From NCBI GenBank assembly GCA_017458965.1, contig JAFSZJ010000065.1, positions 1 to 39,756 of the forward strand: a DNA stretch of 39,756 bases. Reading direction: 5' to 3'. The stretch comes from Kiritimatiellia bacterium. GTDB taxonomy: Bacteria > Verrucomicrobiota > Kiritimatiellia > RFP12 > JAAYLN01. Made by a program: the position numbers and the translations under genes. The notes beneath the pieces were generated by a model. That model was not told the origin of the DNA. It was given only the letters and a program-made list of their open reading frames with translations, and ran no database searches. Positions 23,905 to 28,539 of this stretch are shown one piece after another. Position 1 is the first letter of the stretch. The number at the start of each line of letters is the position of its first letter.

Positions 23905-25188
23905 ATGAACTACCCCCGCACACTCCTCGCGGCCGTTGTCGCCGCAACCACCTTCTGCGCGGCATACGCGCAGGAAGCCACCCCCGAAGACGTCGTGGCA
24001 ACCGAGGCCGCCGTCGAGTCCAAGTCCGTCCATGACATGGTGGACGAATACCTGAACGCCAAGGGTTATTCCGAAGGGGAAAACACCAAGGGCGGCAAGC
24101 CGTTCTACGTCGCAGTGGGCTACGGCGTAATTCAGGCGCCGCTCGAAAACCGGAGCTACATCGACTCGCGCGTCAACGCCTACAACAAGGCGATGCTCGA
24201 CGCCAAGGCGAAGATGGCCGAGTATCTTGAAGTCGCCATCAGGACGGAAACAGAGCACGACTATGCCGAGGGCAACTTCGGCGGCAACGAGGAGGCCGAG
24301 GCGGATTCGCTCAGCATAACTTCGAAAATAAAGTCACTAATCAACGCGAAACTAGACAAGGCGCTGCGCGAGGAGGGGCTTGATCCCGACAAGGCCGAGC
24401 GCGAGGCTCGCGAACGCATCGCCAAGAAGCAACTCAATTCCGACTTCTACAAGAAGGTCATCTCAACCGCCGCAAAGGCCGAGATAACCGGAATGCAGGT
24501 CATGTGCGCATTCGAGGGTGTACCTGCCGGCGGGAAGGGGCAGATTGGCGTAGTCGCCATCTGGAGTCCGAAGCTCCAGGCGATGGCGCAGTCGATATCG
24601 CGCGGCACCCGGCTCCCGTCAGGCGTCGGCAAGAAGCCGGTCAAGGAGCAGATTCCATCAGACAACAAGGTACTTCTCTCGACATTCGGCGTGCAGCAGA
24701 AGATCGACGAGAACGGCGACCTTGTGTTAGTCGCGTTCGGCCAGGCTGGAGCCGTGACGGATTCGCCTCAGTCGGCTAACGCCGCCCGCAACAAGGCGAA
24801 GATGCAGGCGATGGCCGCCATCCGCGAATTCGCCGGCGAGAGCGTTGCCGTGACATCCGACGCCGTGAACGCCGAGAACGTGGAGGAGTTCGAGAACGCG
24901 GCGGAGGAATACGAGGACGTTTCAGCCTACTCCCAGAAGATCAAGGCTGCCGCCGAGAAGATGAACATTACAGGAATAGCCACGATAAAGAATTGGGACT
25001 GCAAGCACCCGCTCGCCGCACGCACCGTTTACGGCGCTATCTGCACATGGAGTCCGAAACAGGCCATAAACGCCAAAGACATGAGCAATGCCATGAACGG
25101 CGCGGGAACTCCGCAGCCGCAACCAGTGGTGAACACGACCGACGGTATTCAGAACCGGGGCGCGGACGGGGATGAAGACGCTTTCTGA
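23905..25188 (+). CDS. Exported DUF6844-like protein
   Basis: 427-residue protein with a cleavable signal peptide (LLAAVVAATTFCAAYA, cut before QEAT). Two related halves appear. The first contains YVAVGYGVIQAPLENRSYIDSRVNAYNKAMLDAKAKMAEYL, the second LVLVAFGQAGAVTDSPQSANAARNKAKMQAMAAIREFA. Each looks like the LPP20/DUF6844 pattern of a small strand, then a run of A-x-x-x-A helices. Both halves end with a similar strand, VMCAFEGVPAGGKGQIGVVAIWSPKLQ and ARTVYGAICTWSPKQ. The DUF6844 label is from memory of family appearance. No Shine-Dalgarno is possible: an 8-bp repeat abuts the ATG. It overlaps the next gene by 17 nt. Confidence 0.6.
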   Translation: MNYPRTLLAAVVAATTFCAAYAQEATPEDVVATEAAVESKSVHDMVDEYLNAKGYSEGENTKGGKPFYVAVGYGVIQAPLENRSYIDSRVNAYNKAMLDAKAKMAEYLEVAIRTETEHDYAEGNFGGNEEAEADSLSITSKIKSLINAKLDKALREEGLDPDKAEREARERIAKKQLNSDFYKKVISTAAKAEITGMQVMCAFEGVPAGGKGQIGVVAIWSPKLQAMAQSISRGTRLPSGVGKKPVKEQIPSDNKVLLSTFGVQQKIDENGDLVLVAFGQAGAVTDSPQSANAARNKAKMQAMAAIREFAGESVAVTSDAVNAENVEEFENAAEEYEDVSAYSQKIKAAAEKMNITGIATIKNWDCKHPLAARTVYGAICTWSPKQAINAKDMSNAMNGAGTPQPQPVVNTTDGIQNRGADGDEDAF

Positions 25189-25765
25189 TCGTGTCTGGGC
25201 ACTTGCCGCCCTCATCGCGGCGGTGCTGTCGATCAGCGCCGCCGTTCCCTGCCCCGCCGCCACGGCGGCAGAGGTATTCAAGGCTCACGAGGTCGAAATA
25301 GCCACCAACCGGTGTGTCGCGGTCGGCGGCTATGTTTTCGGCGTGGGGCGGGCGATCTCTCGGCAGGGAGGCGACGCCGTGGGCTTCTCGAAAGCGCGCC
25401 TCCTCGCGCAAGGGAAGATATTGGCATACGCCACAGGCAACGCGCCATGCCCTGAGGGGCTGGAGATCGCCGGTATCGAGACGGTTTTCGAGAGGCGCGA
25501 GGCGCCGGAGCACTACATGGTAGTGGTAGCCGTTATGGAGGCGCAGACTGAAGGTCTGCGCCGACAGGACGCCACAGCACATGCGTGGGAAGGTCTGCGC
25601 CGACAGGACGCCACAGCACATGCGTGGGAAGGTCTGCGCCGACAGGACGCCACAGCAACCGAGCAGGATGCAGCCTGTGCCATAGAGGAGTATGAACCCC
25701 GAGGCTACTGGGAGGAGCGCGGCATCAAAGCAAACGAAACGCTGAGCGAGGCGCAGTTTCTGTGA
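25172..25765 (+). CDS. Small exported protein with REP-derived 13-residue repeats
   Basis: 197-residue protein with a signal peptide (VWALAALIAAVLSISAAVPCPAATA). The first 120 residues resemble the LPP20-like domains of its neighbours: AVGGYVFGVGRAISRQGGDAVGFSKARLLAQGKILAYA, then HYMVVVAVMEAQ. After that come three copies of a 13-residue unit, EGLRRQDATAHAW (the last shortened), encoded by 39-bp tandem DNA repeats. The DNA at the start of this block is a REP hairpin of the same family that flanks the adjacent transposase. The tail YEPRGYWEERGIKANETLSEAQFL resumes normal sequence. The insertion keeps the frame, so the gene may still be functional. Confidence 0.7.
   Translation: MKTLSDRVWALAALIAAVLSISAAVPCPAATAAEVFKAHEVEIATNRCVAVGGYVFGVGRAISRQGGDAVGFSKARLLAQGKILAYATGNAPCPEGLEIAGIETVFERREAPEHYMVVVAVMEAQTEGLRRQDATAHAWEGLRRQDATAHAWEGLRRQDATATEQDAACAIEEYEPRGYWEERGIKANETLSEAQFL
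25541..25568 (+). repeat. REP element 1 (inside a coding gene)
   Basis: Perfect 8-bp stem GCGCAGAC/GTCTGCGC around the loop TGAAG, followed by CGACAGG. Same loop and tail as the REPs flanking the RAYT gene; here it is within the exported protein gene. Confidence 0.75.
25550..25658. repeat. 39-bp tandem repeats (2.8 copies) in coding sequence
   Basis: Identical units begin at 25550, 25589 and 25628, the third cut off at about 31 bp. Each contains the REP right arm and tail plus CGCCACAGC. Being 13 codons long, the repeat preserves the reading frame. Confidence 0.9.
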
Positions 25766-25772
25766 CCACCAT

Positions 25773-25801
25773 CCTGTCGGCGCGGTCCTTCAGACCGCGC
25801 C
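25773..25801 (-). repeat. REP element 2 (left flank of RAYT)
   Basis: Tail CCTGTC, then the perfect 9-bp stem GGCGCGGTC/GACCGCGCC with loop CTTCA. Read on the minus strand this is stem, TGAAG, stem, GACAGG. It ends 18 bp before the RAYT ATG and is inverted relative to REP element 3. Confidence 0.85.
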
Positions 25802-25807
25802 TTGTGG

Positions 25808-25813
25808 CATAAT
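25808..25813 (+). promoter_or_regulatory. -10 box adjacent to RAYT start (leaderless candidate)
   Basis: CATAAT preceded by TGG (extended -10) just after the left REP. Only 6 nt separate it from the ATG at 25820, so the transcript would start at about the ATG. No Shine-Dalgarno site is present. Confidence 0.4.
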
Positions 25814-25819
25814 GTCCGC

Positions 25820-26809
25820 ATGGGCTTTCCGGAATTCAGGGGCGGGCGGCGTTACAAGGGCTACGACTATTCGCGTGGCGCGGTCTTCTTCATTTCCTTC
25901 GGGGTCTCCGGTCGTCCTCCAGTGTTCGGAACTGTCGATGGCGACAAGGTCATCCACAGCGCGGCAGGGCTGGCTGCCTGCGAGACATTGCGCCGCGAGG
26001 CGGAGCGCAACCCAGACATCGCGCTTCACACCTCGGTCGTGATGCCGGACCATGTACACCTGCGTCTATACGTGCGCCCCGGGACCCCAGACCCGATCAA
26101 GGCTGTCGGTGCCTTCGTCGGCAACCTCAAGCGCTGGACCTCCTGGCGCGCGAAGGGGCTGGGCATCACCATCGAATGGGAGCCGAACTACTACGACCGA
26201 CTCTGCCTTTCCCGCGAGATCATAGAGCTTGTCGACAAGTACATAGCGAACAACCCGCTCAAGTGGGCGCTGATGCATGGTCCCAACCCACCGCTCAAGG
26301 TAATCGAGCCCCTCTCCTCGCCGCTGTTGCCGGACTATGAATGGTGGACAGGCGTAGGTGCAGCATCGTGGCTCGACGCCAAACACCGCTTCGCCGCCAT
26401 AAAATTGTCGCGAAGCATTGCTGCGGCCGAGATCCAGGCAGTCGTAGGACGATGCCTGAACGCCGTAAAGAAAGGTTTTGTGCCTATCTCGACCTTTATC
26501 TCCCCGGCGGAGCGGGCGTTGCAGAAGGCTCTCGCCGCACAAGGTGCGCCAATGGCGCGGGTGGTGCCTGACGCACTTGAGACGGTTTACCGCCCCAAGG
26601 AGGACGAACCACCACAGTTCGCGGCAGGGCAACTGCTGCTTTTGTCGCGTGTCGCAGCAGCCAGTATGAGCCGCCATGACGCATGGCACGGGGTGAACGA
26701 CGCCATAGCCGACATGGCGGTGAAGAGTGGCGGAGCTGCGCTCTACGTGGTGCGGGAGAGGCCCGGGGCGCAACTGGAGTGGCGGTTCAGGACGGGAGGC
26801 GAGGTTTGA
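25820..26809 (+). mobile_element. REP-associated tyrosine transposase (RAYT, Y1_Tnp) with extra C-terminal domain
   Basis: 329-residue protein-coding gene. The first 165 residues are a Y1 HUH transposase of the IS200/RAYT type. VVMPDHVHLRLYV holds the metal-binding His-x-His, and NYYDRLCLSREIIELVDKYIANNPLKW holds the catalytic Tyr helix and the usual YIxxNPxxW end. RAYTs bind and cut REP hairpins on single-stranded DNA. Residues about 190-329 are additional: FVPISTFISPAERALQKALA, VPDALETVYRPKEDE, FAAGQLLLLS and RHDAWHGVNDAIADMA. I recognise this tail from some Bacteroidetes RAYTs and it recalls a DprA/SLOG-like Rossmann fold, which is inference. ATG 25820 is chosen from the -10 box at 25808. 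The stop codon lies in the loop of REP element 3. Confidence 0.9.
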
Positions 26810-26826
26810 AGAACCTCGCCGACAGG
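26798..26826 (+). repeat. REP element 3 (right flank of RAYT, holds stop and start codons)
   Basis: Perfect 9-bp stem GGCGAGGTT/AACCTCGCC around the loop TGAAG, then GACAGG. The RAYT stop TGA (26807-26809) forms the loop start, and the likely kinase start TTG (26806-26808) spans the stem-loop junction. Confidence 0.88.
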
Positions 26827-28539
26827 ACGGCCGCCTCAACCCTTACTCTGCCGGGTGAGCGGCGGGCGCCCCCGTTTTCGCCAGGCACGGTGATCGGCGG
26901 AAACCTGCGCATCGTCTCACGGATCGGCGCGGGAGGCATGGGCACGGTATATCTGGCGGTCGATGCAGGGCTGCTGGGAAGGTCGTGCGCCGTGAAGGTG
27001 CTGGACAATGTGGAGGCAGGCGCCGCAAGCCACGGGCGCTTCCTCGCCGAAGCCCGCATCATGGCCTCCCTGCGCCACCCGAACATAGTGCCGGTCTCAC
27101 GCTACGGAACCGATGCCGACACCGGGCTCGACTTTTATGTGATGGACGAGCACCTCCCATCGCGGACGGAGGTGGAGCACATATGCCGGGATGTGCTCCA
27201 TTGTCCAATCCCTGTGACGGATGGCAAGCAATCGCCCTTGACGCTGGCGCGCCTGATCGACGGCGGCAGGACCTTGCCGGAAGCGGCTGTGACCACAATC
27301 GCGCTACAGCTGCTTTCCGCCATGGAGGCGGCACATGCGCTTTCGCCGCCTGTAGTGCACCGCGACATCAAGCCATCCAACATCCTATTCGCAGGTGATG
27401 GACGCGTCGTGCTATCCGACTTCGGAATCGCAAAGCGCATATCCGGGGACGACGGAGCCGCGACGGCGGAATGGACCTCGCCCAACGCCGCTCCTGGCAC
27501 CTGGGCCTATTCGGCGCCGGAGCAACGGCACGGGGGCGTGATCGGCATAGCGACCGACTACTATGCGTACGGCCTTGTGCTTTTCAGGACGCTGACCGGC
27601 GGCATGCCCAACCACGCCGCAGCGTTGCCGACGGACATAGCGCCAAAGGTCTCGAAGCACTGGACCAGGCTCTTCTCAGGTCTCCTAGCTGAAGATCCTG
27701 GCAAGCGCCTTGCCGACGCCGCGCAAGTGCGCAAGACATTGGAGAAGATCGTGGCGGACATAGGCCTGCGCGGGCAACGCAGGAACTACCTGCGCGTGGC
27801 GGCTGGCATCGCCATTGTCGCAGTCCTGGCGACGGCGGTGGGGCGCGGCCTGAAGGATCGTACCGACAGTACGCCACAGCCAACGCAGGACGAGGAACGC
27901 ACCGACAGGGCGCCACAGCCCACGCAGGATGAAGACAGCACAATTACGAAGGAGAAAGACCCGCCATTCGACCACAGGGGATGGTGCCGGCAATATGCCG
28001 AATCACTCCGGGAAACGCTTGATAAGGCGCTTGCCGCGCCCAAGCCCGACGATGCAGGCAGGATCACGGTCCGCGAGGGGCAGACACTCCTTTCAGGGGA
28101 CATCCAGGAAGTCGACAATGTCGTGGAGATAGTTCTCGACGGCGGCGAGATGCGTTTCTCCCCATCAGCAGAGTATCTGCGCGACATAGTTGCCAGATGC
28201 GAGGACTTCGCCGTAAACGCGGCGGATGGGGAGAAGTCGCCTGAAGACCTGTTGCCCACAATGCGCGTGCACTTCTACAAGCCAATATCCGTAACGGAGC
28301 GCGGCGGGCACCTCGACACTGCCGACGGCGAAATAACAGCCCTGCTATCCGGCCCGGTGCGCCGCGCCGATGGCGTGGACAAGGCGACGCTTAAGGTTTT
28401 CGGTTTTTCCTCGATCATCATCGACCGAGCCGAACTCGATCCCGGACTGCGGATAACCGGCGCGGGTCAGATAGCCGATATCGGCTTTGGCGGCGCATTG
28501 CGGAACCGACGCTGGTTCGACGACGAAAACCCGCTATAG
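26806..28539 (+). CDS. Membrane-anchored Ser/Thr protein kinase (PknB type)
   Basis: 577-residue protein if the TTG at 26806 is the start. The kinase domain is complete: GAGGMG loop (about 41-46), catalytic Lys in CAVKVL (64), HRDIKPSN (HRD 185-187), DFG (205-207) and APE (237-239). It is followed by one transmembrane helix (about 328-346) and a 230-residue extracytoplasmic region of unknown fold. GGGAGG (26794-26799) lies 6 nt before the TTG, which overlaps the RAYT stop as TTGA. An in-frame ATG at 26683 would add 41 residues of RAYT-overlapping, atypical sequence. The linker after the membrane helix (RTDSTPQPTQDEE, RTDRAPQPTQDED) is encoded by REP-derived 39-bp repeats. The gene converges on the FHA gene; the stops share the palindrome CTATAG. 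Confidence 0.9.
   Translation: MKNLADRTAASTLTLPGERRAPPFSPGTVIGGNLRIVSRIGAGGMGTVYLAVDAGLLGRSCAVKVLDNVEAGAASHGRFLAEARIMASLRHPNIVPVSRYGTDADTGLDFYVMDEHLPSRTEVEHICRDVLHCPIPVTDGKQSPLTLARLIDGGRTLPEAAVTTIALQLLSAMEAAHALSPPVVHRDIKPSNILFAGDGRVVLSDFGIAKRISGDDGAATAEWTSPNAAPGTWAYSAPEQRHGGVIGIATDYYAYGLVLFRTLTGGMPNHAAALPTDIAPKVSKHWTRLFSGLLAEDPGKRLADAAQVRKTLEKIVADIGLRGQRRNYLRVAAGIAIVAVLATAVGRGLKDRTDSTPQPTQDEERTDRAPQPTQDEDSTITKEKDPPFDHRGWCRQYAESLRETLDKALAAPKPDDAGRITVREGQTLLSGDIQEVDNVVEIVLDGGEMRFSPSAEYLRDIVARCEDFAVNAADGEKSPEDLLPTMRVHFYKPISVTERGGHLDTADGEITALLSGPVRRADGVDKATLKVFGFSSIIIDRAELDPGLRITGAGQIADIGFGGALRNRRWFDDENPL
27842..27869 (+). repeat. REP element 4 (degenerate, inside the kinase gene)
   Basis: GGCGCGGCC, loop TGAAG, GATCGTACC, then GACAG. 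The left arm matches REP element 2 at 8 of 9 positions. The right arm has decayed but still gives 5 Watson-Crick and 2 wobble pairs. It encodes part of the linker after the transmembrane helix. Confidence 0.6.
27862..27939. repeat. Two 39-bp tandem repeats in the kinase linker
   Basis: Units 27862-27900 and 27901-27939 agree at 32 of 39 positions. Each contains a CGACAG.ACGCCACAGC-like core shared (at most one mismatch) with the 39-bp repeats at 25550-25658. They encode two 13-residue Pro/Gln/Asp-rich units. Confidence 0.8.

Follow-up and report, generated by a model that had tools for sequence, protein, structure and literature searches.

Can the hairpin that closes a transposase gene also open the gene beside it? 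In the window, by which we mean the whole 39,756-nt stretch of DNA analysed here, a RAYT-like transposase gene and a Ser/Thr protein kinase gene meet inside a REP, and a sequence-only reading had proposed that this REP provides the stop codon of the first and the start codon of the second. The window makes up a single contig of a MAG of 1.75 Mb, 63% complete. Relatives recovered by synteny are named Kiritimatiellae or Verrucomicrobia, several of them from rumen, omasum or faeces, and the host is a gut or rumen bacterium. The family survey covered 96 genomes of the order, including the window's own genome (G000), G004 (same family, different genus) and G053 (another family). Our answer is that the REP hairpin probably supplies the kinase's new start codon and first amino acids. 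The features concerned are as follows.

25540 to 25649, plus strand: REP and two 39-bp partial repeats, in frame inside the hypothetical gene 25172-25765
25770 to 26829, no strand assigned: REP-RAYT-REP unit in which the RAYT lies between two inverted REPs whose tails point outward, the hypothetical gene and the kinase on either side
25770 to 25801, minus strand: left REP, inverted, hairpin GGCGCGGTC-TGAAG-GACCGCGCC with tail GACAGGATG (read on the minus strand)
25820 to 26809, plus strand: RAYT-like Y1 transposase, its ATG 25820 start set by comparison with G053
26794 to 26799, plus strand: Shine-Dalgarno-like GGGAGG of the kinase, 6 nt before TTG
26798 to 26829, plus strand: right REP, hairpin 26798-26820 (loop TGAAG) and conserved tail GACAGGACG
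26806 to 28539, plus strand: Ser/Thr protein kinase, proposed start TTG 26806, open reading frame open over 26680-28539
26890 to 26892, plus strand: alternative kinase start GTG, in frame
27842 to 27873, plus strand: decayed REP-like stretch in the kinase linker, arms only partly complementary

The hairpin of the right REP reads GGCGAGGTT-TGAAG-AACCTCGCC, a perfect 9-bp stem with a 5-nt loop. Folded as RNA it reaches -18.5 kcal/mol (z -4.0), a value equalled by none of 200 shuffles. The RAYT stop TGA (26807-26809) forms the first three bases of the loop, and a TTG in the kinase frame (26806-26808) overlaps it as TTGA. The final two bases of GGGAGG are the foot of the hairpin, and the motif is formed at the junction of RAYT and REP. 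Read from this TTG, the kinase residues MKNLADRT come from 26806-26829, which spans the end of the left arm, the loop, the right arm and the tail. The proposal that the loop supplies the RAYT stop and an overlapping TTG behind GGGAGG is correct to the base; the further claim that KNLADRTA is encoded by the REP holds for KNLADRT, the last A falling just beyond the REP.

The stop half of this junction belongs to the transposase. The RAYT translation carries HVH (MPDHVHLRLY) and YIANNP, the HUH and catalytic Tyr motifs expected of a Y1 transposase. Its sole NCBIfam match is NF047646 (REP_Tyr_transpos, REP-associated tyrosine transposase) at 30 bits against a cut-off of 80; Pfam Y1_Tnp scores 20 bits, under the cut-off of 23, and a PDB search returned only weak Y1 transposase matches and low-scoring C-terminal matches to designed proteins. 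The left REP is 85% complementary to the right one. In the REPtron (PMC2817692, PMC3733652), two inverted REPs enclose a gene for a Y1 HUH transposase; this layout is found here and in G053, and the cognate REPs are dispersed, with two more loci in this incomplete genome. The window REP differs from those of REPtrons in that it has no GT[AG]G foot, its stop TGA sits in the loop, and that loop would also start the next gene. On the 5' side of the hairpin foot there is no canonical GT[AG]G guide; conservation at the foot lies in the tail GACAGGACG, and the other side is variable. We rejected a canonical GTAG REPtron on the missing foot and on a RAYT-like protein that falls below the family cut-offs.

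REPs near or overlapping RAYT 3' ends are known, and the termini of GTAG-family REPs often give TAG stops (PMC2817692, PMC3733652). REPs that give stops, overlap RAYT 3' ends or lie inside genes have precedents; one REP serving as the stop and the start of adjacent genes is new. The nearest RAYT, in G053 (L079, G053:C254), is 72% identical, from another family and among other neighbours. To its left stands the same inverted REP; to its right it enters the same REP as the window RAYT, in an identical frame and one codon earlier. That REP has the loop TGGAG, and past it the RAYT frame continues without a stop for hundreds of codons, which fits the TGA of the window's loop as a working stop. This open frame runs antisense over an alpha-galactosidase-like gene. 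The stop in the REP is a feature of the RAYT unit, whose junction recurs with a RAYT in another family. Among the 14 RAYTs of at least about 35% identity, ten read into a 3'-end hairpin and the remaining four have a hairpin within about 20 nt past the stop, as judged from listed hairpins, not all of which were shown to be repeats. In four RAYTs with other REP families (L082, L083, L084 and L088, from G047, G002, G018 and G022), the frame runs through several REPs and gives a long repeat-encoded C-terminus.

The start half rests on the kinase frame. TTG 26806 had been named the best-placed kinase start, and it has by far the strongest Shine-Dalgarno pairing among the in-frame starts: -10.3 kcal/mol, compared with -1.9 at ATG 26683, -5.6 at GTG 26779 (spacing 13) and -2.5 at GTG 26890. 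Only 1.2% of random positions are as strong. Among the window genes examined, an equal pairing occurs only at two other tightly overlapping genes, the 18508 gene (-10.7) and the FHA gene (-10.9), so a strong Shine-Dalgarno at an overlap fits this genome's habit. Upstream of TTG, codon use in the kinase frame scores as non-coding (-13.2), and there the RAYT frame scores as coding. ATG 26683 and GTG 26779 were rejected because they combine this non-coding score with a Shine-Dalgarno that is weak or badly spaced. From 26806 to 26889 the kinase-frame score is ambiguous at +1.0 (5% of coding segments are this low, and 23% of open non-coding frames are this high). Based on these sequence features, TTG 26806 is the favoured start.

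Relatives show what the kinase 5' end looks like elsewhere. In three of them (G056, G033, G009) the gene order is UP2> UP1> DUF6844> HYP> <kinase sigma>: the gene of the hypothetical protein (HYP) adjoins the kinase with no RAYT, and the kinase lies on the other strand, divergent from the sigma gene. The window order is HYP> RAYT> kinase> <FHA <sigma, so the kinase has also been turned round. Compared with L069, L070 and L073, the window segment 26797-29671 has the kinase and the sigma/FHA genes turned round, at least two rearrangements. In the seven kinases at RAYT-less loci, the start codon is ATG or GTG and lies 4-12 residues ahead of PGxxxGG. An extended -10 box stands 6-9 nt upstream of that start in each of them, the seventh being L070; by chance such a box precedes 0.5% of all ATG/GTG codons in the window. 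The box was found by comparing relatives. No such box precedes the window kinase at any in-frame ATG, GTG or TTG start. In the kinases divergent from the sigma gene (L067-L073), the position of the box suggests transcripts with a very short leader or none.

Nothing in relatives corresponds to residues 1-24 of the TTG version, and the N-termini of all seven RAYT-less orthologues differ from it. The sequence-only reading had asked for this comparison and named a shared N-terminus as the refuting outcome, which was not observed. These other N-termini, each with its own promoter-like box, support a rebuilt kinase 5' end. The earlier idea that an inserted REP did the rebuilding needs amending: the rebuilt end stands, and what arrived was a whole REP-RAYT-REP unit at a locus that was also rearranged. 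Since the right REP is the right end of that unit, a simple one-REP insertion was rejected. With the unit (25770-26829) removed and its flanks joined, the kinase frame has no ATG, GTG or TTG between a TGA and GTG 26890.

The kinase could instead start downstream, at GTG 26890 or at a non-standard codon near 26848, with the REP in an untranslated leader, where it would perhaps dampen or stabilise the message. GTG 26890 lies just upstream of IGG, and a start there would keep the kinase domain intact, which together with the unmatched residues 1-24 and the non-coding score of 26833-26889 (-2.9) speaks for such a start. Intragenic REPs, including N-terminal ones, have been described, with the caution that those at predicted N-termini are often, or may often be, untranslated (PMC3733652). 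However, GTG 26890 has a weak Shine-Dalgarno and no -10 box, its product would lack the PGT residues kept by relatives, and the Shine-Dalgarno at TTG 26806 is among the strongest in the window. We regard a downstream start as possible but doubtful, and retain TTG 26806.

The missing ancestral start and promoter-like box, together with the decayed REP in the linker, might also mean that the rearrangement cost the kinase its promoter and that the gene is decaying, a dead or poorly expressed by-product. This is improbable for a gene with 618 open codons, coding-like codon use (+110 over 26890-28536) and intact GAGGMGTVY, AVK, HRDIKPSN, DFG and APE motifs (Pfam Pkinase 2e-31). Nor do we think that a chimeric join at a short repeat made the RAYT-REP-kinase junction. 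The junction does come from one assembly of a single MAG, and 29 bp of the right REP are identical to a copy on another contig (C122). But the kinase adjoins HYP in three relatives as well, where a random chimera would hardly have placed it, and the RAYT-REP half is matched in G053; an artefact is therefore very improbable.

We lean, if only slightly, toward a reading in which the REP of the unit gives the RAYT its stop and the kinase its TTG start, and in which the kinase is translated mainly by ribosomes finishing RAYT. The kinase gene would have lost its ancestral start and promoter, and rearrangement of the locus would have placed the unit directly before it. The TGA in the right REP loop would then close the RAYT frame, and the same loop would provide the TTG start in a 4-nt TTGA overlap. 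A ribosome ending RAYT would stop on bases shared with the kinase start, beside a strong Shine-Dalgarno, and ribosomes translating RAYT would melt the hairpin that would otherwise bury this start. The first eight residues of the kinase would be encoded by the REP. A sigma-70 two-box scan over 25100-27200 found nothing. A promoter-like extended -10 box does precede the RAYT ATG 25820, as it does only some other RAYTs, and this box could drive RAYT and kinase together. Several points count against the preferred reading: the codon score from 26806 to 26889 is ambiguous, TTG is a weak start codon, the hairpin, at its predicted stability, could shut the site down, and the REP-kinase junction comes from one assembly of an incomplete MAG.

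Translationally coupled genes with a 4-nt overlap of the ATGA or TTGA type have an overlapping stop and start with a Shine-Dalgarno just upstream. The window junction resembles them in the overlap at 26806-26809 and in its pairing energy, and differs in that stop, start and part of the Shine-Dalgarno sit in a mobile hairpin. The arrangement would function as a coupled pair of genes assembled by a REPtron. Provided that the TTG is used, the start and N-terminus of a signalling kinase, and probably the control of its expression, have been rewired by a transposase-borne hairpin, which would be a concrete, testable route for REP/RAYT elements to reshape genes.

The REP family is a genuine repeat. 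The pattern TGAAGNNCNNCGCCGACAGGACG occurs in full at five places in the own genome (three around the RAYT, one each on contigs C55 and C122), where the reversed control pattern has no match. Among the 96 genomes, clear copies are confined to the own genome, G004 with 29 and G053 with three that all flank its RAYT; control-pattern matches are absent from these three genomes. Single one-mismatch matches in a few other genomes look like chance. Stems differ between copies and are mostly still complementary; the loop TGAAG and the tail are near-invariant, features that the search pattern itself held to at most one mismatch. On the antisense strand, nearly all copies read CGTCCTGTC; the left window REP has CATC. 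G004 has 29 copies, yet its best RAYT is only 42% identical.

Such hairpins are taken up into genes more widely, and the window is one instance. Of the 24 copies analysed in G004, 13 sit in frame within genes, where nearly all read as RPVGAVLQTAP; with the own genome added, 14 of 26 analysed copies lie in stop-free frames that score as coding on both sides. These 14 are all antisense and 13 share one frame, as RPVGAVLQTAP or variants (P of about 6e-6 for at least 13 of 14 in one given frame, assuming that the three antisense frames are equally likely). In-gene copies are found at L152, L155, L144, L146, L149, L151, L158 and L141 (G004) and near 2950 of L078 (C122). Host genes, named by inspection and with CysRS confirmed, include CysRS, an ABC-F protein, a glycosyltransferase and a histidine kinase with a receiver domain. 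A comparison of CysRS with the PDB did not clearly place the REP peptide; the congener G002, whose CysRS lacks the REP stretch, placed it. One REP family in one dominant frame, across CysRS, ABC-F, histidine kinase and other genes, offers a system in which coding palindromes can be tied to a candidate transposase.

Short palindromes in frame inside unrelated genes, N-termini included, are known, also from the verrucomicrobial Opitutus terrae (PMC3733652, PMC10969869). In-frame insertion in unrelated protein genes is what our copies share with intragenic REPs and Rickettsia palindromic elements (RPEs). Unlike both of these, our family flanks a RAYT, and its in-gene copies in G004 are antisense without exception, almost every one of them in a single frame. 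With CGTC-tagged REP families 1-4 it shares the antisense CGTC head, the 9-bp stem, the 5-nt loop and in-gene copies; here, however, CGTC lies 5 nt from the stem and the repeat is transposase-associated, whereas CGTC families were reported without transposase association (PMC3733652). The A-T pairs at the stem foot and the CCA tail that define families 1-4 (PMC3733652) are absent, the foot being G-C, and we rejected membership: the CGTC terminus was present and the other defining features were not. A limited literature search found no paper on REPs in Kiritimatiellia, which leaves their absence unproven.

It is conceivable, though on balance unlikely, that a RAYT with a non-GTAG guide spreads a preferentially coding REP family and that the element works as a movable linker peptide, as a stop codon or as a switch between stop and start; the preference would arise because the palindrome can be read in all frames but one. 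If so, RPE-like coding palindromes would be joined to a transposase, the association reported missing for CGTC-type repeats.

In the hypothetical gene downstream of DUF6844, a sense REP is read in a third frame; the RAYT, kinase and HYP readings together make one palindrome a stop, a start with leader, and an internal peptide. The decayed stretch in the kinase linker keeps the frame of the 5' REP (GLKDRTDSTPQ compared with GLKNLADRTA). At the corresponding place, the G002 orthologue of HYP has a REP-like hairpin whose stem differs (L113, 4336-4378).
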